Assembly: GCF_034627025.1 (NCBI RefSeq)
Contig: NZ_CP141048.1
Location: 1,934,001 to 1,998,000 of the forward strand
DNA from: Microvirga lotononidis
GTDB taxonomy: Bacteria > Pseudomonadota > Alphaproteobacteria > Rhizobiales > Beijerinckiaceae
Reading direction: 5' to 3'
Length of the DNA: 64,000 nucleotides
Part shown: positions 46,842 to 64,000 of the stretch, piece by piece
Position numbering within the stretch: position 1 is the first letter of the stretch
Layout: each line of letters starts with the position of its first letter
Translations under genes and position numbers: made by a program
Notes under the pieces: model-generated
The model's database searches: none
What the model was told of the DNA's origin: nothing
Seen by the model: the letters and a program-made list of their open reading frames with translations, nothing else

Positions 46842-47015
46842 GGGAGACCGGCTCGAACGAAGGGTTACCTGCTCTAACGTTACGAGAACTTAGCAGGATG
46901 TCCCTGGGAACAAAGCCGATTCACATCATGAATGATGTGTTTTGCAGCACAAGGTGAACGACTGCGGCATTAGGGCCACAGACTCAGCCTCCCGAGCGAC
47001 GATCAAATTCTGGGG

Positions 47016-47405
47016 TCAGGCCGTCCTGCCGCAGGCAATCAGGAGCTTCTGCTTCAGATCGTGCTGGGCAAAGGGCTTCTGCAGGACCGGACGATCACGG
47101 AAGGCGTCACGAATGCCTGCGCTGCCGTAGCCGGTCGAGAAGACGAAGGGGATCGAACGCTGCGCCAGGGCTTCGGCGACCGGATAGATGGGCTCGCCGG
47201 CGACGTTCACGTCGAGGATGGCCAGATCGACCTGTTCGCGCGCCACGGCGTCCAGGGCCGCGGACAGGCGGGCTGCCGGACCGATCACCTCGCAGCCGAA
47301 ATCGAGAAGCATGTCTTCCAGGAGCAGGGAGATCGCGGCTTCATCCTCGACGACGAGGATACGCAGGCCATTGAGATCTCCATCGCTCGTTACGCTGTCG
47401 GTCAC
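47016..47405 (-). CDS. Single-domain response regulator, FATGUY-like (SdrG-type)
   Basis: About 129 residues from the GTG at 47405; GTG 47423 or TTG 47489 are alternatives, as no strong ribosome site decides. A lone receiver domain: ILVVEDEAAISLLLEDMLLD with the acidic pocket, phospho-Asp in VDLAILDVNVAGEP, and RSIPFVFSTGYGSAGIRDAF then LQKPF with the conserved Lys. The FxFxTGY segment is the mark of FATGUY regulators, which feed HWE/HisKA_2 kinases in the alphaproteobacterial general stress response; here Ser replaces the usual Ala. It lies 174 bp downstream of the FecR-barrel start on the same strand. Confidence 0.85.
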   Translation of the reverse strand: MTDSVTSDGDLNGLRILVVEDEAAISLLLEDMLLDFGCEVIGPAARLSAALDAVAREQVDLAILDVNVAGEPIYPVAEALAQRSIPFVFSTGYGSAGIRDAFRDRPVLQKPFAQHDLKQKLLIACGRTA

Positions 47406-47816
47406 GGGTTCACTTTCTTTCACGCTCGGATGCTGGCTGATCAGCCAGCAAAACACGGAACAAGATGCGCCGGATCTTCCGGACTTCAAGGCTGGAATCA
47501 GGTGCTTCTATCACTTTTGAGGATCCGTGCAAAAACCGGGCACGCTCGCAATCGTACATAATATCGTTATGGACCGATCCTGGGTCGGCGGCAAGCTTCG
47601 CCCAGAGGATCGAACCCACGCGTCCATTCCGTTTCCGGTCTTGATCTGAGTTCCGTCATGCGCCTGGTCTCCCGGTCCGTCTCCGGCCTGGGAATTGCGA
47701 CTCCGCGGGCTGCCGATGCCCCTTGCGGAGAAGGCATCTTATCCCGAATAATCGGGTTATGGTCTCGCGTGATCTCCTACCTTTCGTCATGAACGCCTCC
47801 GCATCGGGTCGAAACC
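47406..47816. other. Gene-free stretch between response regulator and amidotransferase
   Basis: The regulator's true start may take up to 84 bp of it. The rest shows no reading frame I trust. Two small hairpins, CTCCGC/GCGGAG (47701-47730) and CCCGA-ATAA-TCGGG (about 47743-47756), lie before the amidotransferase start. The two promoters diverge here. Confidence 0.45.
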
Positions 47817-48557
47817 ATGCCTAGGCGGCGTCCCAAAGCACCCATTCTCATCGTCCTGCATCAGGAACACTCGACGCCCGGCCGGGTCGGGCGCCTGCTC
47901 CTGGAGCGCGGCTACCACCTCGACATCCGCCGCCCGCGCTTCGGGGATTCTTTGCCCGAGACGCTCGCCGAGCACACGGGAGCCGTGATCTTCGGCGGCC
48001 CGATGAGCGCCAACGATCCGGACGATTTCATCAAGGCTGAGATCGACTGGATCGAGGTGCCGCTCAAGGAGAACAAGCCCTATCTCGGCCTCTGCCTGGG
48101 TGCACAGATGATGGCGAAGCAGCTCGGCGGTCGCGTCTGGTCCCACCCCGAAGGCCGGGCTGAGATTGGTTATTATCCCCTGCTGCCTACGGCCGCCGGC
48201 GAGGCATTGAGCGAAGATTGGGGCGTGCCCTGGCCGAGCCATGTCTATCACTGGCACCGGGAAGGCTTCGATTGCCCCACGGGTGCCGAGACCCTGGCCA
48301 CGGGAGACGATTTTCCGACCCAGGCGATCCGGGCCGGCGAGAAGGCCTTCGGCCTCCAGTTCCACCCCGAGGTCACCCACGCCATGATGTGCCGCTGGAC
48401 GGTTCATGCGGAGGAGCGGCTGAAGATGCCGGGTGCGCAGGACCGGGTGCGCCAGCTCGCCGGGCGCTTCCAGCACGATCCGCACGTCTCCCGCTGGCTC
48501 GACCGGTTCCTCGACCATTGGCTTGATGACCCCATGCCGAAGCGCCTGCGGACCTGA
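47817..48557 (+). CDS. Class I glutamine amidotransferase-like protein
   Basis: 246 residues of a stand-alone GATase1 domain. The catalytic triad is Cys93 in LGLCLGAQMMAK, His183 and Glu185 in FGLQFHPEVTHAM. The oxyanion strand VIFGGPMSANDPDD also fits. It resembles the GMP-synthase-like subgroup that releases ammonia from glutamine or cleaves gamma-glutamyl bonds; the acceptor is unknown. Convergent with the ScfR-type regulator, 3 bp apart at the stops. Confidence 0.92.
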   Translation: MPRRRPKAPILIVLHQEHSTPGRVGRLLLERGYHLDIRRPRFGDSLPETLAEHTGAVIFGGPMSANDPDDFIKAEIDWIEVPLKENKPYLGLCLGAQMMAKQLGGRVWSHPEGRAEIGYYPLLPTAAGEALSEDWGVPWPSHVYHWHREGFDCPTGAETLATGDDFPTQAIRAGEKAFGLQFHPEVTHAMMCRWTVHAEERLKMPGAQDRVRQLAGRFQHDPHVSRWLDRFLDHWLDDPMPKRLRT

Positions 48558-48560
48558 CGG

Positions 48561-49994
48561 TCACGTCGCGTCGAACTCGAAGGGCGAGACGCCGCGCTTC
48601 ATCTCGTCGACGATCAGGGCGTGCATGAGGGGCGGGGCGGCGCGTTGCGGGCAGGCGACGCGTTCGCACAGGCGGCAATTGATGCCGATGGGGGTCGCAT
48701 CCGCCGAGGACAGGTCGAGCCCCCGCGCGTAGACGAGGCGATGGGCGTATTTCAGCTCGCAGCCGAGGCCCACGACGAATTGCGGATCGGGCGCTCCCCA
48801 AGGGTTGAAGGCGCGCTTCACCGTGCGGGCGATGGAGAACCAGCGCGAGGTGTCCGGCAGCTCGATCACCTGCGTGGCCACCTGTCCCGGGGTCCGGAAG
48901 GTGGAATGAAGGTTCCAGAGCGGGCAGGTGCCGCCGAATTGCGAGAACGGGAAACGGCCGGAGGAGAACCGCTTCGAGACGTTGCCGGCCGAATCCACCC
49001 GCACCAGGAAGAACGGAATGCCCCGGGCACCGGGGCGGGCCAGCGTCGTGAGCCGGTGCGCCACCTGCTCGAAGCTCGCGCCGAAACGGGCGCCCAGCAC
49101 CTCCACGTCGTAGCCGAGCGCTTCCGCAGCCGCATGGAATTTGCCATAGGGCATCATGAGGGCGCCGGCAAAGTAATTGCCGAAGGAGACGCGCAGCAGC
49201 CGCCGGGCGGGCCCGTCCACCGGCTCGAGACGGGCCGCGAGGGCGTCGATGGTTTCGCGCATCTCGGTGAAAGCCAGCTGGTAGGCGGCCTGGAAGGTCC
49301 TGCCAGATGGATCGACAAGCTCGGATATCAGGAGCTGTCGCCGGTGGTGGTCGTAGCGGCGTAAGGAATCCGGCATCACGTCGATGGGCATGACGCGCAC
49401 GCGGATCCCGTGCCGGGCGTGCAGGCGCTCGGCGATGGCGAAGAAGGGCTCGTGGCCCGTCAGGGCGAGGTCCGACGCCAGGGTCTCGGCGGCCTCGTCC
49501 AGCTCGGCGAAATGGTTCTTGGCCTCGTGGATCAGCTCCCTGACCCGGTCGACCGGGTTGACCTGGGGCGCATCCTCCGCCCGGTCCCGGTCGCTGAGGC
49601 TCGTGGGCACGGCCTCGCGGGCGCCGCGCATGGCCTGATAGGCCCGGTAGAGCCGGTTGATGGCATCGACCAGGGAGGGGGCGCTCTCCACGGTCTCGCG
49701 CAATTCGAGCCGGGCGACCGGGGTCGAGCGGAACAGCGGGTCGGCGAAAACCTCCTCCAGTTCCGAGACGGTGCGCTCGCGATCGTCGTTGGCGAATTCG
49801 CGCGGGTCGAGCTGATAGGCATGGGCAAGGCGGATCAGCACCTGGGCGGTGATCGGGCGCTGGTTGCGCTCCATCAGGTTCAGATAGCTCGGTGAGAGGC
49901 CGAGCTCCTCGGCCATGCGGGACTGGCTCATGTTGAGTTCCCGCCGCAGCCGCTTGAGCCGGGGGCCAACGAAAAGCTTTCTGCTCTCATCCAT
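48561..49994 (-). CDS. Short-chain fatty acyl-CoA regulator family protein (ScfR/RamB-like)
   Basis: 477 residues. An N-terminal helix-turn-helix (LRRELNMSQSRMAEELGLSP, residues ~14-33) is followed by an IrrE/M78-like central domain (about 170-290) in which no HExxH motif is visible. The C-terminal DUF2083 domain has the cysteine cluster NCRLCERVACPQR. This layout is that of RamB/ScfR regulators, which sense acyl-CoA status and control isocitrate lyase and acetate genes. Divergent from aceA, with a palindrome TTGTAAA-N4-TTTACAA touching its own start, so autoregulation and control of aceA are likely. Confidence 0.93.
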   Translation of the reverse strand: MDESRKLFVGPRLKRLRRELNMSQSRMAEELGLSPSYLNLMERNQRPITAQVLIRLAHAYQLDPREFANDDRERTVSELEEVFADPLFRSTPVARLELRETVESAPSLVDAINRLYRAYQAMRGAREAVPTSLSDRDRAEDAPQVNPVDRVRELIHEAKNHFAELDEAAETLASDLALTGHEPFFAIAERLHARHGIRVRVMPIDVMPDSLRRYDHHRRQLLISELVDPSGRTFQAAYQLAFTEMRETIDALAARLEPVDGPARRLLRVSFGNYFAGALMMPYGKFHAAAEALGYDVEVLGARFGASFEQVAHRLTTLARPGARGIPFFLVRVDSAGNVSKRFSSGRFPFSQFGGTCPLWNLHSTFRTPGQVATQVIELPDTSRWFSIARTVKRAFNPWGAPDPQFVVGLGCELKYAHRLVYARGLDLSSADATPIGINCRLCERVACPQRAAPPLMHALIVDEMKRGVSPFEFDAT

Positions 49995-49995
49995 G

Positions 49996-50046
49996 TTGTA
50001 AATCTTTTTACAATTTTACACGATCAGTCGAGTCAAAGCTTTACAA
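49996..50046. promoter_or_regulatory. Operator candidate for the ScfR/RamB-like regulator
   Basis: A perfect inverted repeat TTGTAAA-TCTT-TTTACAA occupies 49996-50013, one base upstream of the regulator's start codon. Further half-sites follow: TTTACAC at 50015-50021, TTTACAA at 50040-50046, and TGTAAA at 50163-50168 just before the aceA ribosome site. Repeated TTTACAA elements across the divergent region suggest cooperative binding controlling both genes. Confidence 0.7.
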
Positions 50047-50181
50047 GGCGACTTTTCTTTTGAAATCCGGCGTTGAAACAAACGTTTCTTCGCGGATTAT
50101 ACCCTCAAGACGTCCTGCTGCTCTGCAACAATTCTGGCCAGCAGAAGAGTTTTGTCAAGAAATGTAAAAGAAAGGACCGCC

Positions 50182-51501
<1,320 letters not shown>

Positions 51502-51539
51502 TTCAATCCCTCAAACCCTTTGCACCAATGGAGACCGTC

Positions 51540-51749
51540 ATGATGAAGTCACGTTTCTGGGTGGTCGGCGGCGAGTACACCTCCTGCGACTGCGAAACCA
51601 TCGTCCAGGGCACCGAGCGGGTGGTCGGTCCCTTCGACAGCCGGACCGAGGCCGAGCGCACCTGGCGCAGCCTGTCCGAGGATCATCGTCCCCAGGCCCA
51701 GGTCCGCTTCACCATCGCCCAGGAGCCCCCGTCGACCCTGAGCGCCTGA
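51540..51749 (+). CDS. DUF4170 domain-containing small protein
   Basis: 69 residues from the ATG at 51540, with GGAG 6 bp upstream (ATG 51528 is an in-frame alternative). FWVVGGEYTSCDCETIVQGT, VGPFDSRTEAERTWRSLSE and VRFTIAQ match the DUF4170 family of small alphaproteobacterial proteins with no known function. It lies 38 bp after aceA and is probably in its transcript. Confidence 0.85.
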   Translation: MMKSRFWVVGGEYTSCDCETIVQGTERVVGPFDSRTEAERTWRSLSEDHRPQAQVRFTIAQEPPSTLSA

Positions 51750-51778
51750 AGAGGCCATCACGGACGCTCACGGCCAGC

Positions 51779-51809
51779 CCCGCCGGAGGACGAGCGTTCC
51801 TCCGGCGGG
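51779..51809 (+). terminator. Hairpin terminator candidate after aceA-DUF4170
   Basis: A perfect 12-bp stem CCCGCCGGAGGA/TCCTCCGGCGGG with a 7-nt loop, followed by ATCCTTTG. The U-run is weak, but the stem is strong and sits 29 bp past the DUF4170 stop. Confidence 0.55.
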
Positions 51810-51928
51810 ATCCTTTGCCGCCACATGAAGTTTTTAACCTCCGGTTTCATTCTTCCGGAGCCACCCCCCTGCCGAAACCGCCCGACTGTCCTAGAACCAG
51901 CAGGGCAAGGATTCTCAAGGGGTTTCGC

Positions 51929-52843
51929 ATGAAGACCGTCCTCACATCGCTCACCTTTGCCGCCGCGCTGGCGTTCGCCGGGGCGGGCGCCGCCAAGGCC
52001 GACGTGGTCGTCTCGTCCAAGATCGACACCGAAGGCTCGGTCCTGGGCAACATCATCCTGCTGACCCTCGACGCCAACGGCATCAAGACCCAGGACCGGA
52101 TCCAGCTCGGCGCCACCCCGGTGGTGCGCAAGGCGATCACGGCGGGCGAGATCGACATCTATCCCGAATATACCGGCAATGCGGGCTTCTTCTTCAACAA
52201 GGCGGACGACCCGGTCTGGAAGGATGCGGCCAAGGGCTTCGAGACGGCCAAGAAGCTCGATTACGACGCCAACAAGATCGTCTGGCTCGATCCCTCGCCG
52301 GCCAACAACACCTGGGCCATAGCGCTGCGCAAGGACGTGGCCGATTCCAACAAGCTCAAGACCCTGTCCGAGTTCGGCCAGTGGGTGACGAAGGGCGGCA
52401 AGGTGGTGCTGGCGGCCTCCGCCGAGTTCGTGAATTCGGACGCGGCCCTGCCGGCCTTCCAGAAGACCTATAACTTCAAGATGAAGCCGGAGCAGCTCAT
52501 CGTGCTCTCCGGCGGCGACACGGCGGCGACCATCAAGGCGGCGGCCGAGCAGACCAACGGCGCCAACGCGGCCATGGTCTACGGCACCGACGGCGGCATC
52601 GCCCCATCGGGCCTCACGGTGCTGGACGACGACAAGAACGTGCAGCCGGTCTATGCTCCGGCGCCGATCATCCGCGAATCCGTCCTGAAGGAGAACCCGA
52701 AGATCGCCGAGATCCTGAAGCCCGTCTTCGCATCCCTCGACCTCACCACGCTCCAGGGGCTGAATGCCCGGGTCCAGGTCGGCGGCGAGCCCGCGAAGGC
52801 GGTGGCGACGGATTACCTGAAGTCCAAGGGTTTCTTGAAATGA
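51929..52843 (+). CDS. osmF: Osmoprotectant/glycine betaine ABC transporter substrate-binding protein (OsmF/YehZ-like)
   Basis: 304 residues with a signal peptide (MKTVLTSLTFAAALAFAGAG, cleavage near AKA-D). The OpuAC-type fold shows DVVVSSKIDTEGSVLGNIIL, AITAGEIDIYPEYTGNAGFF and NNTWAIALRKDVAD. YehZ-type proteins bind glycine betaine weakly and are induced under osmotic or stationary-phase stress. Gene order with the following permease, ATPase and permease is YehZ-Y-X-W as in Escherichia coli. A repeat hairpin pair separates it from the permease gene. Confidence 0.92.
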   Translation: MKTVLTSLTFAAALAFAGAGAAKADVVVSSKIDTEGSVLGNIILLTLDANGIKTQDRIQLGATPVVRKAITAGEIDIYPEYTGNAGFFFNKADDPVWKDAAKGFETAKKLDYDANKIVWLDPSPANNTWAIALRKDVADSNKLKTLSEFGQWVTKGGKVVLAASAEFVNSDAALPAFQKTYNFKMKPEQLIVLSGGDTAATIKAAAEQTNGANAAMVYGTDGGIAPSGLTVLDDDKNVQPVYAPAPIIRESVLKENPKIAEILKPVFASLDLTTLQGLNARVQVGGEPAKAVATDYLKSKGFLK

Positions 52844-52952
52844 TCTGAGGTTCTGGTTTCGACCGACGAGGGCGTTCCTGGGAGCGCTGGATCCTCCTGC
52901 GAGACGCGGCTAGGCTGCTCCCCGGCGTCCGGCTCGAAAGTGAGACCTTCCC

Positions 52953-53042
52953 GTCATGGCCGGCCTTGTGCCGGCCATCCCGATTGTGTGAAGCGCCGCG
53001 CCTTTCCCATCGGGATCACCGACAATAAGGCCGGTGATGACG
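52953..53042. repeat. Paired-hairpin intergenic repeat, copy 6
   Basis: Left: ATGGCCGGC (52956-52964), CTTGT, GCCGGCCAT (52970-52978). Right: ATCACCG...CCGGTGAT (53015-53038), imperfect. The linker GAAGCGCCGCGCCTTTCCCAT is the best match to copy 4. It sits between the binding-protein gene and the permease gene of one transporter, where a stable hairpin can set unequal expression. Confidence 0.85.
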
Positions 53043-53114
53043 AGGCAGGATGATGGAGGGCTCGATGAGCCATACTTTCGGAATTCATACGGTGCGATAA
53101 GGGCCGGAAACTTT

Positions 53115-54317
53115 GTGACGACGATCTCTTCCCGAACGACCGCGCCCGGCATGTCCTCCTTGCGTTCCTCCCTGTCCCCGGACCGGCTCGGGAGCGTGAT
53201 CGCCGTCCTGATCGGCGTCGCGCTCTTCGCCTCGCCCTTCGTCATCTACCGGGCGAACCGCATCGTGGCCGGCGTGGGGCGGATGCTGACCGATGCGCTG
53301 CCGACGCCCGGTGCCGTCGGCATGATGGTCGTGGCGCTCGCCGTGGCGTTGTGCGCGGCCCTGGTCCGTGCGCCGCTGATCCGCCTCGCGGCCGCGTCCA
53401 TCGGCCTGTGCGCAATCTTCCCCGCGGTCGGATACTCGGCAGGTTTCGTCACGCCGCCCGGCAACACCTTCGCCCGCGTCTCGCCCGCCCTGGGCTTCTG
53501 GCTCCTGGCCTTGGCCTTCGCGCTGCTTGCGGCCGATGCGTTGACGCGGATGCGCCTCGGGCCCTGGGCGAGGCTCGCCGCCCTGGCCGTGGCGGCGGGC
53601 GCGACGGCGCTGCTGCTCGTTTCGGGGGCCTGGGACAACCTTTCGCTGCTCAAGGAATATGCGAGCCGGGCGGATACCTTCTGGCGCGAGGCGCGCGAGC
53701 ACCTGTGGCTCGCTTTCGGCTCGATGATCGCCGCCTGCCTGCTCGGTCTGCCGCTGGGCATTCTCGGCCATCGCGTCCCGCGCTTGCGAAATGCGATCCT
53801 GCAGGTGCTCAACATCGTCCAGACGATTCCGAGCATCGCGCTCTTCGGCATCCTGATCGCGCCGCTCGGGTATCTCGCCGCCCACGTGTCTTTGGCGGCG
53901 GCCCTGGGCATTCGCGGCATCGGGGCCGCGCCCGCCTTCATCGCGCTTTTTCTCTACTCGCTGCTGCCGGTCGTCGCCAACACCGTCACCGGGTTGAAGC
54001 AGGTACCGGCGGCCGTGACCGACGCTGCGCGCGGCATGGGCTTGTCCGCGCGCCAACGCCTGTGGCAGGTGGAGCTTCCGCTCGCGCTGCCGGTCATTCT
54101 CGCGGGCATCCGCATCGTGCTGGTGCAGAACCTCGGATTGGCCACCGTGGCGGCGCTGATCGGGGGAGGGGGCTTCGGCACCTTCGTGTTCCAGGGCATC
54201 GGCCAGACGGCGATCGACCTCGTGCTTCTGGGCGCCATTCCCACGGTCGCCCTGTCGTTCGCCGCCGCCATCATCCTCGATGCCTTGATCGATCTGACCA
54301 GACGGGGCTCTCCATGA
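53115..54317 (+). CDS. ABC transporter permease (YehY-like)
   Basis: 400 residues from a GTG at 53115 with GGAAA just upstream; ATG 53151 is the alternative and gives 388 residues. About nine membrane helices: an N-terminal set that YehY carries in addition to the core (SVIAVLIGVALFASPFVIY, MMVVALAVALCAALVRAPL) and the binding-protein-dependent transport core with AARGMGLSARQRLWQVELPL, the EAA-type loop contacting the ATPase. Its last codons overlap the ATPase start by ATGA (54314-54317). Confidence 0.9.
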   Translation: MTTISSRTTAPGMSSLRSSLSPDRLGSVIAVLIGVALFASPFVIYRANRIVAGVGRMLTDALPTPGAVGMMVVALAVALCAALVRAPLIRLAAASIGLCAIFPAVGYSAGFVTPPGNTFARVSPALGFWLLALAFALLAADALTRMRLGPWARLAALAVAAGATALLLVSGAWDNLSLLKEYASRADTFWREAREHLWLAFGSMIAACLLGLPLGILGHRVPRLRNAILQVLNIVQTIPSIALFGILIAPLGYLAAHVSLAAALGIRGIGAAPAFIALFLYSLLPVVANTVTGLKQVPAAVTDAARGMGLSARQRLWQVELPLALPVILAGIRIVLVQNLGLATVAALIGGGGFGTFVFQGIGQTAIDLVLLGAIPTVALSFAAAIILDALIDLTRRGSP

Positions 54318-55252
54318 TCGAGATCGAGCATCTCACCAAGCGCTACGGCGCCACGATCGTCGTCGACGACGTGTCCCTCCGGGTCGACGAGGGAACGATC
54401 ACCGTCGTGGTCGGCACGTCGGGCGCGGGCAAGTCGACCCTGCTGCGCATGATCAACCGGCTGGTGGAACCGAGCGAGGGCCGTGTGCTCATCGACGGCC
54501 AAGATACCATGGCGATCCCCGAGGACCAGCTGCGGCACCGAATCGGCTACGTCATCCAGGGCTACGGGCTGTTTCCTCACCGCGATGTCGCCGAGAACAT
54601 CGCCACCGTGCCGCGTCTTCTCGGCTGGGACAAACGAAAGATCGCAGCCCGCGTCGAGGAGCTGCTGGACCTTTTCCAGCTCGACCCGGCGGAATTCGCG
54701 AAGAAGTTTCCGCATGAACTCTCCGGCGGACAGCAGCAGCGCGTCGGCGTCGCGCGCGCCTTGGCGGCGAAGCCCGCGGTCCTGCTGATGGACGAGCCGT
54801 TCGGCGCGCTCGATCCGGTCATTCGCAGCAAGGCGCAGGACGATCTCGTCGCGATCCAGCGCCGTCTCGGCACGACGGTGGTTCTCGTCACGCACGACAT
54901 GAACGAGGCGTTCCAGCTCGGCGACAGGATCGCCGTGATGGATCAGGCGCGGCTCCTGCAATACGCAACGCCCGCGGAGCTGCTGACGCGGCCGGCGGAG
55001 GCCTTCGTCGAGCAGCTCGTGGGAACGGCGGAAAGGCCATTCCGGCTCCTCTCCCTGCTGAAGGTGCGGGAGGCCCTCGAACCAGGACATGCCGAGGGCG
55101 AGCCCGTGCTCGTCACCGATTCCCTGCGGGATGCTCTCTCGCGGCTGATCTGGGCCGGACGGGAGGCATTGCCCGTCGCGGATGCATCGGGCGCTCTCGT
55201 CGGTCGCGTCAGCGTGAGGGGCATCGTGGCGCATGGGCGGTCCGTACCATGA
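54314..55252 (+). CDS. ABC transporter ATP-binding protein (YehX/OsmV-like)
   Basis: 312 residues. Walker A GTSGAGKST, Q-loop VIQGYGLFPHRDVAENIATV, signature ELSGGQQQRVGVARALA, Walker B VLLMDEPFGALDP, switch VLVTHDMNEAFQLGD. The C-terminal 80 residues form a CBS-like remnant (LVTDSLRDALSRLIWAGREA, RVSVRGIVAHG), as in ProV/OpuCA-type ATPases that sense ionic strength. Both ends overlap neighbours by ATGA. Confidence 0.95.
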   Translation: MIEIEHLTKRYGATIVVDDVSLRVDEGTITVVVGTSGAGKSTLLRMINRLVEPSEGRVLIDGQDTMAIPEDQLRHRIGYVIQGYGLFPHRDVAENIATVPRLLGWDKRKIAARVEELLDLFQLDPAEFAKKFPHELSGGQQQRVGVARALAAKPAVLLMDEPFGALDPVIRSKAQDDLVAIQRRLGTTVVLVTHDMNEAFQLGDRIAVMDQARLLQYATPAELLTRPAEAFVEQLVGTAERPFRLLSLLKVREALEPGHAEGEPVLVTDSLRDALSRLIWAGREALPVADASGALVGRVSVRGIVAHGRSVP

Positions 55253-56004
55253 GCGCCCGTTCGCTGCTCTGGCGCGCGGCGGCGCTGCTCCTGCTGGTGC
55301 TCTTCATCACCGCGCCGCAGCTCTTCGCCTTTGCCTTCAGGCCGATGACCACGAACGGCGCGCCAGCGATCTACAACCAGGGCAGCCTGCTCTCCCTGAC
55401 CCTCTCGCATCTGCGGATCGTGTTCCTGGCGACGCTGGCGAGCACCGTTCTGGCGCTCGGGCTCGGCATCTTCGTCACGCGGCCGTCGGGCCGCGAGTTC
55501 CTGCCGCTGTCGCGCAGTCTGGTGAATATCGGCCAGACCTTCCCGCCCGTCGCGGTTCTGGCGATCGCCGTGCCGCTCGTCGGCTTCGGCGAGAAGCCGA
55601 CCTTCATCGCGCTGTTTCTCTACGGGCTCCTGCCCATCTTCGAGAACACGCTCACCGGCCTGATGGAAGTGTCGCCGCAGACGCTCGAAGCCGCCAAGGG
55701 CATGGGCATGAACCCGCGCCAGCGCCTGTTCCAGGTGGAGCTGCCCCTCGCGCTTCCGGTGATCCTGGCGGGAATCCGCCTCTCGGTGATCATCAGCTTA
55801 GGGACGGCCACCATCGGCTCGACGGTGGCGGCCAAGGGGCTGGGCGAGGTCATCATCGCGGGCCTTCAGTCCAACAACGTTGCTTTCGTATTGCAGGGCG
55901 GATTGGTGGTTGCGCTGCTCGCCGTTCTGATCCACGACGGGTTGGGAATGGTCGAACGGCTCGTCGCCGTGAAACTGGGTCGCCGTGCAGACGAGGTGTC
56001 ATGA
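55249..56004 (+). CDS. ABC transporter permease (YehW-like)
   Basis: 251 residues with about six membrane helices and the EAA-type loop AAKGMGMNPRQRLFQVELPL. The N-terminal loop FRPMTTNGAPAIYNQGSLLS is periplasmic. Together with the permease above it completes the osmoprotectant transporter. It overlaps the heme oxygenase start by ATGA (56001-56004), so the transporter and light-sensing genes are translationally coupled. Confidence 0.93.
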   Translation: MSARSLLWRAAALLLLVLFITAPQLFAFAFRPMTTNGAPAIYNQGSLLSLTLSHLRIVFLATLASTVLALGLGIFVTRPSGREFLPLSRSLVNIGQTFPPVAVLAIAVPLVGFGEKPTFIALFLYGLLPIFENTLTGLMEVSPQTLEAAKGMGMNPRQRLFQVELPLALPVILAGIRLSVIISLGTATIGSTVAAKGLGEVIIAGLQSNNVAFVLQGGLVVALLAVLIHDGLGMVERLVAVKLGRRADEVS

Positions 56005-56567
56005 CGCTTCTCGAACGATTGAAGATCGAAACCCGTGACGCCCACGACCGGATCGAGACCGCCATGGATCTCGACCGCCGCATCTCGTCGCGCGAGGCTT
56101 ACAGGGATCTGCTGATCCGCTTCCATGGTTTTCACGCGGCGTGGGAAAGCGAGGCCGCCGAGCGGGCGCCCGACCGGGCCTTCTTTCAGAGCCGCTGCAA
56201 GACCCGGCTTCTTGCGAAGGATCTCGAGGTCCTAGGACTAAAATCTGACGACATCATGGGTTTGCCACAATGCCGTCCTCTGATGCCCCTGCCAGCCCCG
56301 GAGGCGGTGCTGGGAAGCATGTATGTGGTCGAGGGCTCCACGCTCGGCGGCGCGATCATCGCACGCGAGGTGGAGAACCGGCTTGGACTGACGGCGGAAA
56401 CGGGGTGTGCCTATTTCCGCAGCTATGGACGAAATGTTGCAGCCATGTGGAAGTCGTTCGGCGCAGTGCTCCTGGAAGCCTCGTCGCCGGAGGCCGACGA
56501 TCTGATCGTCGGGGCCGCACAGGATACCTTCACCGTGATGCATGACTGGCTGTGCGAGACCCCATGA
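56001..56567 (+). CDS. bphO: Biliverdin-producing heme oxygenase (bacteriophytochrome-linked)
   Basis: 188 residues. The proximal heme ligand is likely His15 in KIETRDAHDRIE, and the distal-helix segment GSMYVVEGSTLGGAIIAREV is diagnostic. It opens heme to biliverdin, iron and CO, giving the chromophore of the next gene's phytochrome. The four-base ATGA overlaps on both sides (56001-56004, 56564-56567) show tight coupling with the permease and the phytochrome. Confidence 0.95.
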   Translation: MTLLERLKIETRDAHDRIETAMDLDRRISSREAYRDLLIRFHGFHAAWESEAAERAPDRAFFQSRCKTRLLAKDLEVLGLKSDDIMGLPQCRPLMPLPAPEAVLGSMYVVEGSTLGGAIIAREVENRLGLTAETGCAYFRSYGRNVAAMWKSFGAVLLEASSPEADDLIVGAAQDTFTVMHDWLCETP

Positions 56568-58804
56568 CCCTGCAAACGCAAGATATCGACCTGACCGCCT
56601 GCGAGCGCGAGCCGATCCACATTCCGGGCAACATCCAGCCGCACGGCATCCTCCTCGCGGTCAGGCTGTCCGACAGGACGATCGCCTATGCCAGCGCCAA
56701 CGTCGCCGAGGTCTTCGGCTTCCAGGCGGCCGATGCGCTCGGCCGGCCCTTCGCCCAGGTTCTGCCGGCCCTGAGCGCGGAGTTCGAGACGCAGCTGGAC
56801 GATCCGCCGACGGTGGGAAATACCCGCTTCGTTCGGACCATCCGGATAAGGACGGTCCAGGAGGAACGGATGTTCGAGACGGCGATCTCCCGTTCGGGCG
56901 ATTGCGCGCTTCTCGAACTGGAGGAGCCCCCCGTCGGTTCGGTCTCCAGCATCGATGCGCTCTATCCCACTCTGCGCCGGTTCGTTGAGCAGCTCCAGAA
57001 CGCGTCGTCCATCGACGTCCTGTGCGATCTGGCCGCGCAGGACGTCCGCCGCATGACCGGCTTCGACCGGGTGCTGGTCTATCGCTTCGACGACCAGTGG
57101 AACGGCACCGTCGTGGCCGAGAGCCGCAACGAGGTGTTGCCGTCCTATCTCGACCTGCGGTTTCCGGCATCCGACATCCCGGCCCAGGCGCGGGAGCTCT
57201 ATCGGCGCAACCGGCTGCGCATCATTCCCGATGCCGGCTACACGCCCGTTCCCATTCAGTCGCACGATCCGGCGCCGCTGGACCTGAGCGACTCGGTGCT
57301 GCGCAGCGTCTCGCCCGTGCATCTCGAATACATGCGCAACATGGGGACGCTCGCCTCCATGTCGATCTCCATCCTGCGCGAGGGCCAGCTGTGGGGCCTG
57401 ATCTCCTGCCACAACAAGGACCCGAAGCGGGTCTCGCTCCAGGTGCGCAACGCCTGCGATTTCCTCACGCAGATCTTCTCGCTGCAGCTGGAGGCGCGGG
57501 AGAACACGATGCTGGCCGAGAACCGCGTGCGTCTCGGTGCCGTGCAGACGCGGCTCCTCGCCCATATGGCGGCCGAGGAGCATTTCATCGCGGGCCTCGT
57601 GAACCATCCGGACGACCTGATGATGCTCGCCGGCGCGCAGGGCGCCGCCGTCCTGACCCAGGACCATTGCTGGTGCCTCGGCCAGGCTCCGGCCAAGGAG
57701 CAGGTGAGGGCGCTCTTCGACTGGCTCTCCGAACATCATCAGGAGGACGTCTTCGCCACCGACAACCTGTCGGAGGTCTATCCGGCGGCGAAGGCCTTTG
57801 CCGACCGGGCGAGCGGCCTTCTGTCCATCTCCGTGTCGAAGGTGCATTCGAGCTACGTGCTCTGGTTCCGCCCCGAGGTGGTTCAGACCGTGAAATGGGG
57901 CGGCAATCCGCAGAAGCCGGTCCAGGAGGAGGCGGGATCCTTGAGGCTCCACCCCCGGCGCTCCTTCGAGATCTGGAAGGAGACGGTGCGGGACCGCTCC
58001 CTGGCCTGGGACCGGAGCGAGGTCGAGGCCGTGAAGGAGCTGCGCAACGCCATCGTGGGCATCGTGCTGCGCCGGGCCGAGGAGATGGCGTCGCTCACGG
58101 AGGAACTGCGCCGCAGCAACAAGGAGCTGGAGGCCTTCTCCTATTCGGTCTCCCACGACCTGCGGGCCCCGTTCCGCCACATCGTCGGCTATTCCGAGCT
58201 GTTGAAGAAGCAGGAAGCGGGCGACATGTCCGAGAAGGGCAAGCGCTACGTCGACACGATCATCGAGGCCGCCTACACGGCCGGGACCCTGGTCGACAAC
58301 CTGCTGCGTTTCTCTCACATGGGCCGCACGGCCTTGAAGCCGCGACAGGTGGACGTCGCGAAGCTGGTCGACGAGATCAGGCAGAAGCTCTCGGCGGAAC
58401 AGGGCGACCGCCGGATCCAGTGGGTCGTCGGGGATCTCGTTCCGGTGAACGCCGATCCGGTGCTGATCCGGCTGGTCTTCGAGAACCTGCTCGACAATGC
58501 GGTCAAGTACACCCGCACCCGGGAGAAAGCGCGCATCGAGATCGGCTCCAGCCGCAAGGATGGGGAGACGGTCTATTTCGTGCGCGACAACGGCGTCGGG
58601 TTCGATATGAAGTACATCGACAAGCTGTTCGGCGTGTTCCAGCGCCTGCACCGGATGGAAGAATTCGAGGGGACGGGGATCGGACTGGCCAATGTCCGCC
58701 GGATCGTCGAAAGACATGGAGGCCGGGCCTGGGCCGAAGGGGCGCTCGACAAGGGAGCGACCTTCTCCATCGCCCTGCCGGATCAGAACGAAGGAGCCGC
58801 GTGA
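56564..58804 (+). CDS. bphP: Bacteriophytochrome histidine kinase
   Basis: 746 residues. The biliverdin-binding cysteine is Cys13 in LTACEREPIHIPGNIQPHG. Domains in order: PAS (~20-115), GAF (~135-300, with FPASDIPAQARELY and SPVHLEYMRNMGTLASMSIS), PHY (~320-505, tongue motif HPRRSF), HisKA with phospho-His531 (FSYSVSHDLRAPFRHIVGYS) and HATPase (NLLDNAVKYT, GVGFDMKYIDKLFGVF, GTGIGLANVRRIVE). It senses red/far-red light and phosphorylates a regulator, most likely the Rcp1-like protein that starts at its stop codon. Its chromophore is supplied by the preceding gene. Confidence 0.97.
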   Translation: MTLQTQDIDLTACEREPIHIPGNIQPHGILLAVRLSDRTIAYASANVAEVFGFQAADALGRPFAQVLPALSAEFETQLDDPPTVGNTRFVRTIRIRTVQEERMFETAISRSGDCALLELEEPPVGSVSSIDALYPTLRRFVEQLQNASSIDVLCDLAAQDVRRMTGFDRVLVYRFDDQWNGTVVAESRNEVLPSYLDLRFPASDIPAQARELYRRNRLRIIPDAGYTPVPIQSHDPAPLDLSDSVLRSVSPVHLEYMRNMGTLASMSISILREGQLWGLISCHNKDPKRVSLQVRNACDFLTQIFSLQLEARENTMLAENRVRLGAVQTRLLAHMAAEEHFIAGLVNHPDDLMMLAGAQGAAVLTQDHCWCLGQAPAKEQVRALFDWLSEHHQEDVFATDNLSEVYPAAKAFADRASGLLSISVSKVHSSYVLWFRPEVVQTVKWGGNPQKPVQEEAGSLRLHPRRSFEIWKETVRDRSLAWDRSEVEAVKELRNAIVGIVLRRAEEMASLTEELRRSNKELEAFSYSVSHDLRAPFRHIVGYSELLKKQEAGDMSEKGKRYVDTIIEAAYTAGTLVDNLLRFSHMGRTALKPRQVDVAKLVDEIRQKLSAEQGDRRIQWVVGDLVPVNADPVLIRLVFENLLDNAVKYTRTREKARIEIGSSRKDGETVYFVRDNGVGFDMKYIDKLFGVFQRLHRMEEFEGTGIGLANVRRIVERHGGRAWAEGALDKGATFSIALPDQNEGAA

Positions 58805-59254
58805 ATGGCGGAGCTGAAACCGATTCTTCTGGTTGAGGACAACCCGAAGGATCTCGAACTGACGCTGGCCGCCCTGGAGCAGAGCCAGCTCGCCAACGAG
58901 GTCGTCGTGGTGCGCGACGGCGAGGAGGCGCTCGACTTCCTCTACCGCCGCGGCGCCCATGAAAGCCGCAACACCAGCGACCCGGCCGTGGTCCTGCTCG
59001 ACCTCAAGCTGCCGAAGGTCGACGGGCTCGAGGTGCTGGAGAAGGTCAAGGCGGATCCGCACCTTCGGCAGACGCCGGTCGTCATGCTCACCTCCTCGCG
59101 GGAGGAAAGCGATCTCGTGCGCAGCTACGAGCTCGGGGTGAACGCCTTCGTGGTCAAGCCCGTGGGCTTCCGCGAGTTCTTCGACGCGATCCAGGACCTC
59201 GGCGTGTTCTGGGCGATCCTCAACGAGCCGCCGCCGCGGCGCAACGGCATTTAA
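58805..59254 (+). CDS. Response regulator, Rcp1-like single receiver domain
   Basis: 149 residues. Receiver with phospho-Asp66 (VVLLDLKLPKVDGLEVLEKV), acidic pair in ILLVEDNPKDLELTLAALEQ, TPVVMLTSSREESDLVRSYE and the conserved Lys in FVVKPVGFREFFDAI. The ELTLAALEQSQLANEVVVVRDG segment is that of Rcp1, the dedicated partner of phytochrome kinases. No output domain. It begins directly after the bphP stop with no gap. Confidence 0.95.
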   Translation: MAELKPILLVEDNPKDLELTLAALEQSQLANEVVVVRDGEEALDFLYRRGAHESRNTSDPAVVLLDLKLPKVDGLEVLEKVKADPHLRQTPVVMLTSSREESDLVRSYELGVNAFVVKPVGFREFFDAIQDLGVFWAILNEPPPRRNGI

Positions 59255-59262
59255 GGCTGCCG

Positions 59263-60312
59263 ATGGACCGGGCTTCCGTCATCTCATCCGACCGGGTGCT
59301 GCGCATCCTCCTTCTGGAGGACAGCGCGCTCGACGCCGAGTTGGTGACGGAAACCCTCGTCGCTTCCGGGCTGTCCGTCTCGGTCGAGCGCGTGGTCTCG
59401 GCGGACGAGTTCACCAGGGCCGTCCGCGACGAGACCTGGGATCTTATCCTTGCCGATTACCTTCTGCCCGCCTTCAACGGCCTGCATGCGCTCGAGATCG
59501 CCCGGGAGATGTCCCGCGCCACGCCGTTCGTCTTCGTCTCCGGTGCCCTCGGCGAAGAGGTCGCCGTCGAGGCCCTGAAGCGCGGTGCGACGGATTACGT
59601 GCTCAAGGACAAGCTCGACCGGCTGCCTCCCACCGTGCTGCGCGCTCTGGCCGAGGCTCGCGAGCGCGGCGAGAAGGAGCGGGCGCAGGATGCCCTGCGT
59701 CAGATGCTCGACGAGCGCACGGCGCTCCTGCACGAACTCGACCACCGGGTGAAGAACAATCTCCAGCTCCTGCTCTCGCTGATCGGCATCGAGTACCGCC
59801 AGGCCGAGGACGGACCCGCGCGCCAGGTGCTCGGACGCATGAAGGAGCGCATGCAGGCGCTCGCCGCCGCTCACCGCGACCTCTACGACGGGCAGGGCTC
59901 GACCCGTTTCGACGCGTCGCGTTTCGCCAGAGGATTGTGCGAGGAACTGACCTCCTCGGTTCCGGGCGTAAGGATCACGCCGGAATTCGAGACCGACACC
60001 GTGGAAGTCGAAGCCGCCAAGGCGGCCCCCATGGCGCTCCTGTTCAATGAGATCGTCGTCAATGCGCTCACCCATGCCTACAAGGAGCGGCAGGGGAAAC
60101 TGAAGCTCCTGCTGCGGATCGAGCATGGCACGCTGGTCTTCCAGATCGCCGACGATGCCTTCAGCCCGCAGGAGAAGCAGCACGCGAAGGACAGCGCCTC
60201 CGGGAGGATCCTGAAAGCCCTCGCACGCCAGCTCGACGCGGCCGTCGAATGGCCGCTCGACGATCCCGCCATCCTGGTGCGTGTCGCCATGCCGGTTCAG
60301 GATGGCAGTTAG
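59263..60312 (+). CDS. REC-HisKA_2 histidine kinase (PakF-like layout)
   Basis: 349 residues. An N-terminal receiver domain with phospho-Asp65 (WDLILADYLLPAFNGLHALE) and FVFVSGALGEEVAVEALKRG leads to a linker. A HisKA_2 dimerisation helix with phospho-His161 (LLHELDHRVKNNLQLLLSLI) and a HATPase (FNEIVVNALTHAYKERQGKL) follow. It is soluble, without membrane helices. This REC-then-HisKA_2 order is that of PakF-type kinases in the general stress response, which are driven by phosphorylated partners. It starts 8 bp after the Rcp1-like gene and abuts the next kinase gene. Confidence 0.92.
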   Translation: MDRASVISSDRVLRILLLEDSALDAELVTETLVASGLSVSVERVVSADEFTRAVRDETWDLILADYLLPAFNGLHALEIAREMSRATPFVFVSGALGEEVAVEALKRGATDYVLKDKLDRLPPTVLRALAEARERGEKERAQDALRQMLDERTALLHELDHRVKNNLQLLLSLIGIEYRQAEDGPARQVLGRMKERMQALAAAHRDLYDGQGSTRFDASRFARGLCEELTSSVPGVRITPEFETDTVEVEAAKAAPMALLFNEIVVNALTHAYKERQGKLKLLLRIEHGTLVFQIADDAFSPQEKQHAKDSASGRILKALARQLDAAVEWPLDDPAILVRVAMPVQDGS

Positions 60313-62451
60313 ATGATCGGCCGAAGATCATACTCCGTGCCATCGACCGGGGACCTGTCCCAGGGCGCCCGGACCTCCCTGCGGCAGGTGCTGTGGGGCC
60401 TGGTGCTGGTTCTCGCCCTGCCGACCATCCTGGTGGCGGCCGCGGGGCTCTATTCCGCCCATCAATCCGAGCGGGAGGCCACCGACCTGCGCATGCAGGA
60501 AACGGCGCGCGCGCTGAGTCTGTCGCTCGATCGCGAAATCGAGAAATTCGTGGTGGCGCTGCGGGTTCTGTCGCGGGCGCCCAGCCTCGCCCGAGGAGAC
60601 TACGAGGCCTTCTATCGCCTAGCGGAAAGCACCGAACTCGCGTCCCCCTCCTGGATCGCTCTGTTCGAACCCGGCGGGCGCATTCTTCTCAATACCCGCG
60701 TGCCCTACGGCGTTATTCTGGAGAACAGCAAACGCCAGGATGTATTGCGGCGCGTCGAGGAAACCCGGAAGCCGTATGTATCGGATCTCTATGCGGGGTC
60801 GCTGACGGGGCAACGGCTCATCACCGTCAACGTCCCGGTGATCATCGACGAGCGGGTCGCCTACATCCTGTCGCTCGCGATCACGCCGGACGTCTTCCAG
60901 AACATCATCCGCGATCAGAGGGTCGCCGACAACTGGAACGCCGCGGTTCTCGACCGGAGCCGGAGGCTTGTGGCGCGCTCCCGGTCGCCGGAGCGCTTCG
61001 TCGGACAGCCCGCCAGCGCCAATATCCAGGAAGCCCTCGCGGCACAGCCGGAAGGACTCCTCCGGAGCGTGACGCTCGACGGCATTCCGGTGCGCACCTA
61101 TTTCAGCCAGTCGCCAACCTATGGCTGGTCCTTCGTCATCAGCATCCCGGAGACGGAGCTTGCGAAATCGGCCCAGCGCTCGCTCTTCTGGCTCACGGTT
61201 CTCGGAGCGGTCATCCTCTGCGGCATCCTCCTGGCCGTTCTGCTCTCTCGCTCCATCTCGAAGCCGGTCGACCGGCTGGTGACGGCGGCCCAAGCCCTCG
61301 GCCGCGGGAACGAAGTCACCGATCGGGCCACCACGCGGGTGCTCGAATTCGACATGATCAAGAAGGCCCTCGTGGAAGCGGCCACCGGCATCCGCAACCA
61401 TGAGCGGGAGCGCGAAGAGGTTCTCGCCCATATGGCCGAGAGCGAGGCACGCCTGCGCCTGGCTCTCAACGCGGGGAATCTCGGCTCCTGGGAATACACG
61501 CCCTCGACGGGAGGACTGACGACGTCGCCCACATGCCGCGCGCATTTCGGGCGCGGCATGGACGAGCCGCTCTCCTATGCGGATCTCGTCGCTCAGATCC
61601 ATCCCGACGACCGCGCCATGCAGGCTGAGGCGGTCGCGCGGGCAATTGCAGCCCGTGCCGATCTTCACGCGGAATACCGCGTGATCTGGCCCGACGGCAG
61701 CGAGCATTGGATCCGGGTGAGCGGCCGCATGAGAAGCGGTCCTGACGGACAGCCTTCCATGGTCGGGGTGTCACAGGACATCACCGAGCGTCGGCTTGCC
61801 GAAGAGCGGCAGGCGCTTCTGCTGCACGAGCTCAACCACCGGGTCAAGAATACGCTGGCGACCGTTCAGTCGATTGCCTCCCTGACCCGGCGCTCCGCCG
61901 ACAACAGCGATCCCGCTGCTTGGAGCGCCTTCATGGACCGGCTGCACGGGATGGCCAAGACACACGATCTTCTCACGGCCACCCACTGGCAGGGCGCGCT
62001 CCTGGAAGACGTGCTGAAGAACGAGCTGGAGCCCTACCAGGACGGCATGGGGCAGCGCATCCGCCTGCGCGGCCCCCGCATCAACCTGCAGCCGAGCGCC
62101 GTTCTCGCCTTGGGACTTGCCGTCCACGAGCTGGCGACGAACGCGGTCAAATACGGATCGCTCTCGGTCCCGGAAGGCAAGGTCCATGTGATGTGGGCCC
62201 TCACGCCGGGGAGTGGTCAATCCGCGCTTCTCGTGGAATGGGTCGAAAGCGGTGGCCCGCTGGTGAAGAAGCCCGAACGCCAGGGCTTCGGCTCCAAGCT
62301 GATCCAGCGCGGCCTCGCGCAGCAGCTGGGCGGCGAGATCAAGCTCGATTTCGCCCCCGCGGGCATTCGCTGCGTCATCACCTTTCCGATCTCGACCATG
62401 ACGGCGGACCAGACCGGCGTGGCCGAGACCCAGGAGCGCTATGCGTCGTGA
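60313..62451 (+). CDS. Membrane-bound HWE/HisKA_2-family sensor histidine kinase with Cache-like sensor and PAS
   Basis: 712 residues. TM1 is near 24-44 (VLWGLVLVLALPTILVAAAG). A large periplasmic sensor with a dCache-like pattern runs to about 290 (ISRAPSLARGDYEAFY-type ligand helix, VPVIIDERVAYILSLAITPD). TM2 is near 292-314, then a HAMP-like linker, PAS around 375-480, and the kinase with phospho-His509 (LLLHELNHRVKNTLATVQSI). HWE/HisKA_2 HATPase motifs follow (LAVHELATNAVKYGSLSVPE, LVEWVESGGP). Its start codon directly follows the stop of the REC-kinase gene. Ligand unknown. Confidence 0.93.
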   Translation: MIGRRSYSVPSTGDLSQGARTSLRQVLWGLVLVLALPTILVAAAGLYSAHQSEREATDLRMQETARALSLSLDREIEKFVVALRVLSRAPSLARGDYEAFYRLAESTELASPSWIALFEPGGRILLNTRVPYGVILENSKRQDVLRRVEETRKPYVSDLYAGSLTGQRLITVNVPVIIDERVAYILSLAITPDVFQNIIRDQRVADNWNAAVLDRSRRLVARSRSPERFVGQPASANIQEALAAQPEGLLRSVTLDGIPVRTYFSQSPTYGWSFVISIPETELAKSAQRSLFWLTVLGAVILCGILLAVLLSRSISKPVDRLVTAAQALGRGNEVTDRATTRVLEFDMIKKALVEAATGIRNHEREREEVLAHMAESEARLRLALNAGNLGSWEYTPSTGGLTTSPTCRAHFGRGMDEPLSYADLVAQIHPDDRAMQAEAVARAIAARADLHAEYRVIWPDGSEHWIRVSGRMRSGPDGQPSMVGVSQDITERRLAEERQALLLHELNHRVKNTLATVQSIASLTRRSADNSDPAAWSAFMDRLHGMAKTHDLLTATHWQGALLEDVLKNELEPYQDGMGQRIRLRGPRINLQPSAVLALGLAVHELATNAVKYGSLSVPEGKVHVMWALTPGSGQSALLVEWVESGGPLVKKPERQGFGSKLIQRGLAQQLGGEIKLDFAPAGIRCVITFPISTMTADQTGVAETQERYAS

Positions 62452-62464
62452 CGCGGAAGACGCA

Positions 62465-62500
62465 CCGCCTTTCCAATCGAGATTACCGGCACAAGGCCCG
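62465..62500. repeat. Half copy of the paired-hairpin repeat, copy 7 (degenerate)
   Basis: CCGCCTTTCCAATCGAGATTACCGG then CACAAGGCCCGTG matches the linker and right hairpin of copies 1, 4 and 6, with several changes that weaken the stem. It follows the last kinase stop and precedes the amidase start. Confidence 0.55.
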
Positions 62501-62550
62501 TGCCCTTCCTGTCCAACCCTCGAACCATCGTCCCCTCATCCGGTGCCTTC

Positions 62551-63849
62551 ATGACCACGACCCGAGACAAGCTTGAAACCATTCTGGCGCGCCTTGCCGG
62601 GCGCAAGGACGAGGAGCGGGTCTTTCTGCGCATCTACGAGGACGCGGCGCGCATCGCCGCCGATGCCGCCGATGCACGGCAGCGCGCGGGTCTCACGCTC
62701 GGCCCACTCGACGGTGTCATCGTGTCGATCAAGGATTTGTTCGACGTGGCGGGCGAGACGACGCTCGCAGGCTCGATCGCCCTGCGCGACGCGCCGCCCG
62801 CCGACAAGGACGCGACCATCGTTCGCCGCCTGCGTCAGGCGGGCGCCGTCATCCTGGGCAAGACCAACATGGTGGAGTTCGCGTTCTCCGGCATCGGGCT
62901 CAATCCTCATTACGGCACGCCCGGCAATGCGGCGGATCCCTCGCGCATTCCGGGCGGCTCGTCCTCGGGAGCGGGCGTGACGGTGGCGGAAGGGACGAGC
63001 GAGATTTCCATCGGCAGCGATACCGGCGGCTCCGTGCGCATTCCGGCGGCTCTCAACGGCGTCGTCGGGTTCAAGCCGACCGCCCATCGCGTTCCGCTCG
63101 ACGGCGCGTTTCCGCTCGCGCCGAGCCTCGATTCCATCGGGCCCCTCGCGCGCGATGTGCAGGATTGCGCGTTCGCGGATGCGATCATGGCGGGCGAGGA
63201 GCCACGCCTGTTGAATGCGCATCCCCTGGTGGGTCTGCGGATCGGCGTGCCGCGCGGACGCCTGTTCGCCCAGACGGAGCCCATGGTGGAGAAGGCCTTC
63301 GAGGCTGCGTTGAAGCATCTGTCGGGAGCCGGCGCGCGGATCGTCGATCATGGCATCGACGATCTGCTCGAAGCCATGGCGGATACCACCGTCACATCCT
63401 CGATCGCGTCCATCGAAGCCTCCGAGGTTCACGCGGATTGGCTCGAGGCGAAGGTCGCCGAGATCGACCCGCGCGTGCATTGGTGGATCGCGCGCAGCGG
63501 CAAGGTGCCGGCGCCGATCTATATCCGCATGCTGCGCCGCAGACGCACCCTCGTCGCCGCGATGGACGAGCGATTGGCGCCTCTCGACGTGCTGGCGTTG
63601 CCCACCACCGCTATCTCCGCCCCTCTGATCGCTCCGCTCGAGGCCGACATCAAGCTCTATAACAAGACCGACGACCTGATCCTGCGCAACACCACGTTCG
63701 GCAACCAGTTCGACCTCACCGGCATCTCCCTGCCGATCCCCGGTACCGAGCGGCCGGTCGGTCTCATGCTGGTGGCGCGCCACGGCCATGACCAGCGGCT
63801 CCTCGACATTGCCGCAAGCGTCGAGACCATGTTGGCTCAAGGGGTGTGA
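62551..63849 (+). CDS. Amidase signature family protein
   Basis: 432 residues from the ATG at 62551. The Ser-cisSer-Lys triad is present: Lys61 in IVSIKDLFDVAG, the GGSSSG serines 137-139, and the nucleophile Ser161 in SDTGGSVRIPAALNGVVGFK. The family hydrolyses amides, including GatA-like and AtzF-like enzymes. The substrate-binding segments are not specific enough to choose, and there is no GatB/C beside it. It follows the kinase by about 100 bp. Confidence 0.93.
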   Translation: MTTTRDKLETILARLAGRKDEERVFLRIYEDAARIAADAADARQRAGLTLGPLDGVIVSIKDLFDVAGETTLAGSIALRDAPPADKDATIVRRLRQAGAVILGKTNMVEFAFSGIGLNPHYGTPGNAADPSRIPGGSSSGAGVTVAEGTSEISIGSDTGGSVRIPAALNGVVGFKPTAHRVPLDGAFPLAPSLDSIGPLARDVQDCAFADAIMAGEEPRLLNAHPLVGLRIGVPRGRLFAQTEPMVEKAFEAALKHLSGAGARIVDHGIDDLLEAMADTTVTSSIASIEASEVHADWLEAKVAEIDPRVHWWIARSGKVPAPIYIRMLRRRRTLVAAMDERLAPLDVLALPTTAISAPLIAPLEADIKLYNKTDDLILRNTTFGNQFDLTGISLPIPGTERPVGLMLVARHGHDQRLLDIAASVETMLAQGV

Positions 63850-63913
63850 GCGGCACGAAACCGGAGAACGGCGCGTTCTGCCCGTTCCGATCCGTCCGGC
63901 GAGAGACACGACG

Positions 63914-64000
63914 ATGCGGCTCTTCTTCCTCAGCCTCGGCTATGCGAGCCTCGCGCTCGGTATCATCGGCATTTTCCTGCCGGTTCTGCCGACGACGCCG
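63914..64000 (+). CDS. YbaN/DUF454-family membrane protein, N-terminus only
   Basis: The first 29 codons read MRLFFLSLGYASLALGIIGI then FLPVLPTTP, the usual start of YbaN/DUF454 small inner membrane proteins (TM1 plus the LPVLPTTP loop). It is cut by the window edge. The start lies 64 bp after the amidase stop. Confidence 0.8.
   Translation, partial: MRLFFLSLGYASLALGIIGIFLPVLPTTP

Follow-up and report, generated by a model that had tools for sequence, protein, structure and literature searches.

The genes described here lie in a 64,000-nucleotide stretch of the 7.3-Mb genome of Microvirga lotononidis (the window; contig C1, positions 1934001-1998000), in which a predicted betaine ATP-binding cassette (ABC) importer of the OsmF/YehZYXW type is followed directly by a bacteriophytochrome signalling module. 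The importer resembles the one encoded by yehZYXW of E. coli (OsmF), whose gene order we take to be binding protein-permease-ATPase-permease, as found in the Microvirga window, and behind whose operon we know of no phytochrome or kinase genes. By its title, the study of Lang et al. 2015 (cited in PMC6207618) regards E. coli YehZYXW as a low-affinity, non-osmoregulatory system. The photoreceptor module has a described counterpart in the betaproteobacterium Ramlibacter tataouinensis. There, the RtBphP1 operon (hmuO-bphP1-cheY-hybrid kinase) contains the same four parts contiguously and in the same order as the window genes for heme oxygenase (HO), bacteriophytochrome (BphP), response regulator (RR) and a kinase with a receiver (REC) domain. 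The passages on this four-gene set call it a putative operon, name no importer, and connect Ramlibacter phytochromes with scarce desert water (PMC6848086). A further likeness is offered by Pseudomonas syringae, for which reviews citing Hatfield et al. 2023 (PMC12627116, PMC12573638) mention phytochrome-mediated anticipation of water loss. According to these mentions, BphP1 readies a non-photosynthetic terrestrial bacterium for drying through a transcriptional response, whereas in Microvirga the link would be built into one operon. Our literature search, outside which most subscription papers lay, found no work joining a phytochrome module and an OsmF-type importer. The photoreceptor module is thus already known from Ramlibacter; what looks new is that it has docked onto an osmolyte importer.

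All genes of the locus are on the plus strand. The importer part starts with osmF (yehZ; 51929..52843), predicted to encode a periplasmic betaine-binding protein (OpuAC/OsmF). When a longer frame starting at 51296 was used as query, the protein scored 513.5 bits against NF049931 (GlyBetbindOsmF; cut-off 400), and its close matches of known structure are OsmF itself (4wep, E 1.6e-108) and 5teu (E 1.6e-147). Next come P1, a YehY-like permease gene (53115..54317; PF00528, 86.1 bits) of 400 codons from the GTG start in the list of open reading frames, a YehX-like ATPase gene (54314..55252; PF00005, 125.3 bits), and P2, encoding a YehW-like permease (55249..56004; PF00528, 83.4 bits). The ATPase scored 291.8 bits against the proV family TIGR01186, under its cut-off of 326.6. 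Judged from these matches and from the gene order, the four genes are those of an OsmF/YehZYXW-type betaine importer. The photoreceptor part comprises the genes for a bphO-type HO of 188 residues (56001..56567; PF01126, 53.9 bits, cut-off 23), a BphP of 746 residues (56564..58804), an Rcp-like single-domain RR (58805..59254; PF00072), a REC-HisKA_2 kinase (59263..60312; PF00072 and PF07568), and a dCache-HAMP-PAS-HWE histidine kinase (60313..62451; PF02743, PF08447 and PF07536, with the HAMP match PF00672 below its cut-off).

These genes are tightly packed. Four consecutive ATGA overlaps join P1 to the ATPase gene (54314-54317), the ATPase gene to P2 (55249-55252), P2 to the HO gene (56001-56004), and the HO gene to bphP (56564-56567). 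Behind bphP, the distances are 0 bp (stop at 58804, start at 58805), 8 bp (59254 to 59263) and 0 bp (60312 to 60313), so that same-strand spacing from P1 through the HWE kinase gene never exceeds 8 bp, as it would in a single operon. The first-pass annotation had already reported these overlaps and gaps, which hold up against the sequence and the reading frames, and its permease, ATPase, permease, HO and phytochrome assignments are backed by Pfam and NCBIfam. Its gene set was correct in its members, although it left out the first gene, osmF. It also called the transporter and the signalling module genetically fused, which is too strong: the reading frames overlap, while no proteins are fused. 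Likewise, its "osmoprotectant" transporter is an OsmF-type importer by its matches, and the osmoprotectant role is uncertain in view of the title of Lang et al. 2015.

We searched 48 Microvirga genomes, including the genome of the window, and judged phytochrome absence at E 1e-60. The importer is present in 47/48 (P2 identity at least 76%); the exception, G017, has only paralogues of 34-37% identity. A BphP orthologue of 57-100% identity was found in 41/48, G017 being a 42nd genome with only a 37% relative, and six genomes (G003, G008, G010, G011, G030 and G043) gave no phytochrome match at that threshold. In 40 of the 41 orthologue carriers BphP follows P2, with or without HO in between; in one of these, G005, bphP is cut off by the end of the contig. 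The one carrier that departs from this order is G021, whose BphP copy (57%) lies on another contig. The joined unit is therefore not peculiar to one genome; the first-pass annotation had named adjacency in this genome only as the outcome that would refute its proposal. Each of the 42 genomes with a phytochrome has one HO, and the six without a phytochrome have none. HO lies at this locus in 39 genomes, among which P2 and the HO gene overlap by 4 bp in 33 and are separated by 67-108 bp in six (G002, G013, G022, G023, G040 and G044), and the HO and BphP genes overlap by 4 bp in 38, including all six that have no overlap with the importer. In the overlap-type genomes the 4-bp overlap is found between P2 and HO in 33/33 (by definition of the class), between ATPase and P2 in 32/32, and between HO and BphP in 32/33. 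Genome G004 has an arrangement of its own: BphP starts 83 bp behind P2 without HO in between, and the sole HO match is on another contig (C187).

Next, we reconstructed the history of the joint. A tree of three importer proteins was built for 46 Microvirga tips and five outgroups, excluding G034 (fragment) and G017 (no importer). The 32 overlap genomes and one module-less genome form a clade in this tree (support 0.99), whose sister group consists of three gap-type genomes. Under Fitch parsimony the overlap requires two changes, and none of 1000 shuffles needed fewer than 8; the 4-bp P2/HO overlap arose once, beside gap-type relatives. The BphP tree, which excluded the incomplete G005 and G013 and used seven of nine fetched copies from another genus of the family, g9, gave a matching picture. 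All 38 usable adjacent copies form one clade (0.94) that is sister to g9, the 32 usable overlap copies form a clade within it (0.98), and the G021 copy is placed outside the clade of adjacent copies. The distances between importers match those between BphP copies (Mantel r 0.95 over 37 shared tips, 0/2000 permutations), as expected of joint descent. We infer that the module docked once, that the joint closed once, and that the module was lost several times. The absence of the module from G011 is a clear loss, whereas its absence in the basal genomes G010 and G021 could be primitive.

Outside the genus, we examined samples of 248 genomes from the family, 297 from the order and 367 from the class, which overlap one another and were searched with different E cut-offs. 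Adjacency of importer and phytochrome was found in 0/7 sampled non-Microvirga co-carriers (G057, G097, G138, G406, G431, G503 and G547); in six of these the two proteins are on separate contigs, and in G138 they are about 370 kb apart. The class sample contained no co-carrier of both proteins outside Microvirga. We also inspected the best 80 of 440 loci from a P2 search for matches above a 60-bit threshold in flanks of up to 10 kb, some of them shorter. No HO or BphP was found in the flanks of the 51 non-Microvirga loci among these best 80, while BphP was found in those of 25 of the 29 Microvirga loci. The signalling module itself is found in related genera. The stretches of g9 examined contain BphP, RR and a REC protein, behind which lies a match to a HisKA-like kinase; HO was not matched there. 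Importer-free stretches of g11 contain HO, BphP, RR, REC and an HWE-type match.

The proteins of the module appear intact. BphP has the PAS-GAF-PHY-HisKA-HATPase_c architecture of a bacteriophytochrome kinase in Pfam (with PAS_2 as the first domain), and it is the only match to a PHY-domain search of its own genome. The biliverdin-binding Cys, the Asp of PASDIP, the GAF His, the PRxSF tongue and the kinase His are established motifs of bacteriophytochromes. Cys13 is present in 41/41 Microvirga copies and the other four motifs in all 39 full-length copies, gaps being confined to G005 and G013. Since BphP scored 366.3 bits against the NCBIfam equivalog NF041576 (cut-off 1040), we read it as a PHY-domain phytochrome outside that narrow equivalog. 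The bphP frame of G013 is broken after residue 226, although the HO, RR and kinase genes of this strain stay open; its photoreceptor is possibly dead. HO has His15 in 39/39 copies. The RR has the receiver Asp66 in 40/40, and its structural matches include 5brj (E 2.5e-65), which we take to be the Agrobacterium BphP response regulator, 5ic5, RcpA (1k68) and Rcp1 (1i3c); to our knowledge, Rcp1/RcpA-type regulators have not been linked to an ABC importer. The REC-HisKA_2 kinase, whose best structural match is LvrB (8vc9, E 9e-27, residues 14-200), has Asp65 and His161 in 40/40. The HWE kinase is the least conserved member, being short in G046 and G029, lacking its N and WE blocks in G045 and giving no match in G044.

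Taken at a probability of about one half, our interpretation is that the locus is a compound operon through which red-light sensing and betaine import are co-expressed, plausibly so that drying can be anticipated. A free-standing HO/phytochrome two-component module of related genera would have docked behind the OsmF-type importer early in Microvirga, and would then have been welded to it, in one large clade, by the 4-bp stop/start overlap. The importer promoter upstream of osmF would read through the HO, BphP, RR and REC-HisKA_2 kinase genes, giving one transcript. HO would turn heme into biliverdin, which BphP would bind, and red/far-red light would set the kinase activity of BphP. Phosphate would pass to the Rcp-like regulator, to the REC domain of the HisKA_2 kinase, or to both, and the latter kinase, together with the dCache-HWE kinase, may feed a stress-response phosphorelay. 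The cell would in this way produce its red-light sensor together with its betaine importer, which is what one would expect if light serves to anticipate drying. A more specific proposal is that of a photo-anticipation operon, in which sensor and importer would come from the same transcript, light perception would be armed exactly when solute import is on, and the signal leaving through the two kinases would prime the cell for desiccation before the surface of the soil has dried. This proposal is tentative, and on balance we consider it unlikely.

In favour of the compound operon are the adjacency in 40 of the 41 BphP carriers, the single origin of the overlap, the agreement of importer and BphP distances, the near-constant 4-bp joints, the coincidence of HO with phytochromes, and the published links between phytochromes and water loss in P. 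syringae and Ramlibacter. Several observations weigh against it. The importer does not need the module, because it is present without the module at this place in seven genomes. Fitch parsimony requires five changes for module presence and absence, and support is low (0.31-0.79) for some basal branches of the importer tree; for both reasons the single docking is inferred and unproved. Adjacency alone is weak evidence of selection, because upstream genes outside the operon are kept about as often as BphP. In a control on the flanks of 29 Microvirga loci (three of them under 20 kb; matches had to reach 45% identity across 40% of the query), the three upstream genes for a GATase, a ScfR-type regulator and a REC protein were found in 25-26/29 (ScfR-type in 25) and isocitrate lyase in 18, compared with osmF in 28/29, BphP in 24, HWE kinase in 23 and amidase in 18. 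It is possible that transcription starts within the 271-bp gap between osmF and the P1 start used (53115). EcfG boxes (GGAAC-N15-18-GTT or GGAA-N16-19-CGTT) were found in 0/45 Microvirga within at most 260 bp upstream of osmF. Finally, a Pfam scan found no DNA-binding domain in the module proteins, so that light-controlled uptake is no more likely than co-expression, or than light signalling that depends on expression of the importer.

The strongest alternative is a passive one, in which the module landed by chance behind the importer and uses the importer promoter, or one hidden in P2, without any functional relation between the two. The high background synteny of the region fits this explanation, as do the retention of the importer without the module in G003, G008, G010, G011, G030 and G043 and the uncertain role of OsmF-type importers that the title of Lang et al. 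2015 conveys. However, the joint has never reopened within the overlap clade, where 32 of the 33 importer-tree members keep the exact overlap and one has lost the whole module. Moreover, absence is always of the entire HO-to-kinase set, and the sole phytochrome found elsewhere, that of G021, belongs outside the adjacent clade. We regard chance placement as less likely than not.

Another explanation is that both modules are general stress genes, under RpoS in gammaproteobacteria and perhaps EcfG here, and were joined through a shared regulon. For E. coli, PMC10654073 and the title of Checroun and Gutierrez 2004 describe osmF as RpoS-dependent, and the title of Barkovits 2008 (cited in PMC5654926) does so for the phytochrome operon of P. 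aeruginosa. The genome of the window does contain a NepR-family gene beside open reading frames that we read as phyR and ecfG. The consensus of the EcfG box is GGAAC-N16-GTT. Against a shared regulon stand the 0/45 upstream of osmF given above and the best near-matches there, which are no better than those in shuffles. At locus L142 the pattern does occur, in both orientations, in the interval between the phyR-like and nepR frames, though this 3.1-kb locus holds four further matches and L143 none. We consider this explanation quite improbable. The same genome gave 15 matches to the NepR family at E ≤0.1 (L142-L149 and elsewhere), seven of which exceed the curated cut-off, and may encode an enlarged set of general-stress anti-sigma factors.

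The first-pass annotation suggested that light or heme status is tied to osmolyte uptake; the light half is plausible, but a heme/iron link, by which HO would recycle heme iron and the operon would tie iron or heme status to uptake, is very unlikely even though HO sits between importer and phytochrome, because HO tracks the phytochrome (42/42 and 0/6) and so looks like chromophore supply, and because it stays overlapped with BphP in 38/39 genomes, also in all six that have no importer overlap.

Returning to the proposed co-expression operon, we screened it for transcriptional signals. A sigma-70 consensus scan of 51600-62700 found no promoter, even before osmF, and so says little; for the same reason, the lack of promoter and terminator in the scan at the importer/HO joint is weak evidence. 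Terminator-like sites numbered 6, compared with 5.3 expected by chance, and the only one on the plus strand is inside the HWE kinase gene, at 60662. We also considered that the 3' end of P2 might hide a conserved promoter; fourfold-site identity, a weak test, gave no sign of one: the last three scored bins of P2 have 0.52-0.58, not raised over the gene mean of 0.58. Upstream of osmF, a candidate promoter element (51867..51895, plus strand) was noticed by eye and then expressed as a regular expression, and is thus post hoc and weak. The expression fits 29/45 Microvirga osmF upstream regions, and the window, differing at one position, is not matched; as it was written after viewing the sequences, its shuffle control (0/900) is biased.

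Among the 45 Microvirga genomes in which the gap between osmF and P1 was measured, it spans 217-379 bp in ten and 29-63 bp in 35; in the window, a second in-frame GTG for P1 lies at 53034. This gap contains a REP-like palindrome (52956..52978, plus strand), whose pattern occurs 48 times in the genome and 0 times in a backwards control; three of the ten long gaps contain a match to it. No tandem repeats were found in window 51000-64000. An Rfam search of window 46000-64000 with E values up to 1 accepted gave two matches, which fall under their gathering scores and belong to eukaryotic- or archaeal-type families. Upstream of osmF, the window contains genes for a ScfR-type regulator and isocitrate lyase (48561-51501).

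Downstream of the HWE kinase gene is an amidase gene (62551..63849, plus strand; PF01425, NF004622). Its listed start is a GTG at 62500, and the ATG at 62551 appears the likelier start, because family matches begin at residue 18, as does that to NF004622. With one consistent start, the distance between the HWE and amidase genes varies from -4 to 765 bp, with 23 distinct values in 30 overlap-clade genomes, in contrast to the near-constant 4-bp joints inside the unit in the same genomes; the distances are inflated or blurred in G029, G045 and G046, where the HWE gene is broken or short. The amidase is probably outside the osmF-to-HWE unit. In G011, which lies inside the overlap clade, the whole HO-to-HWE module is gone, a natural deletion that leaves 56 bp between P2 and the probable ATG of the amidase gene. 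A 4-bp overlap between P2 and the amidase gene in this genome was rejected as an artefact of start choice.

The purpose of phytochromes in non-photosynthetic bacteria is often unclear. An operon that holds a photoreceptor and a compatible-solute importer across most of a genus would offer a concrete and genetically simple test of whether bacteria anticipate drying by means of light, and Microvirga, with its overlapped, gapped and module-less genomes, supplies natural comparison strains for it.

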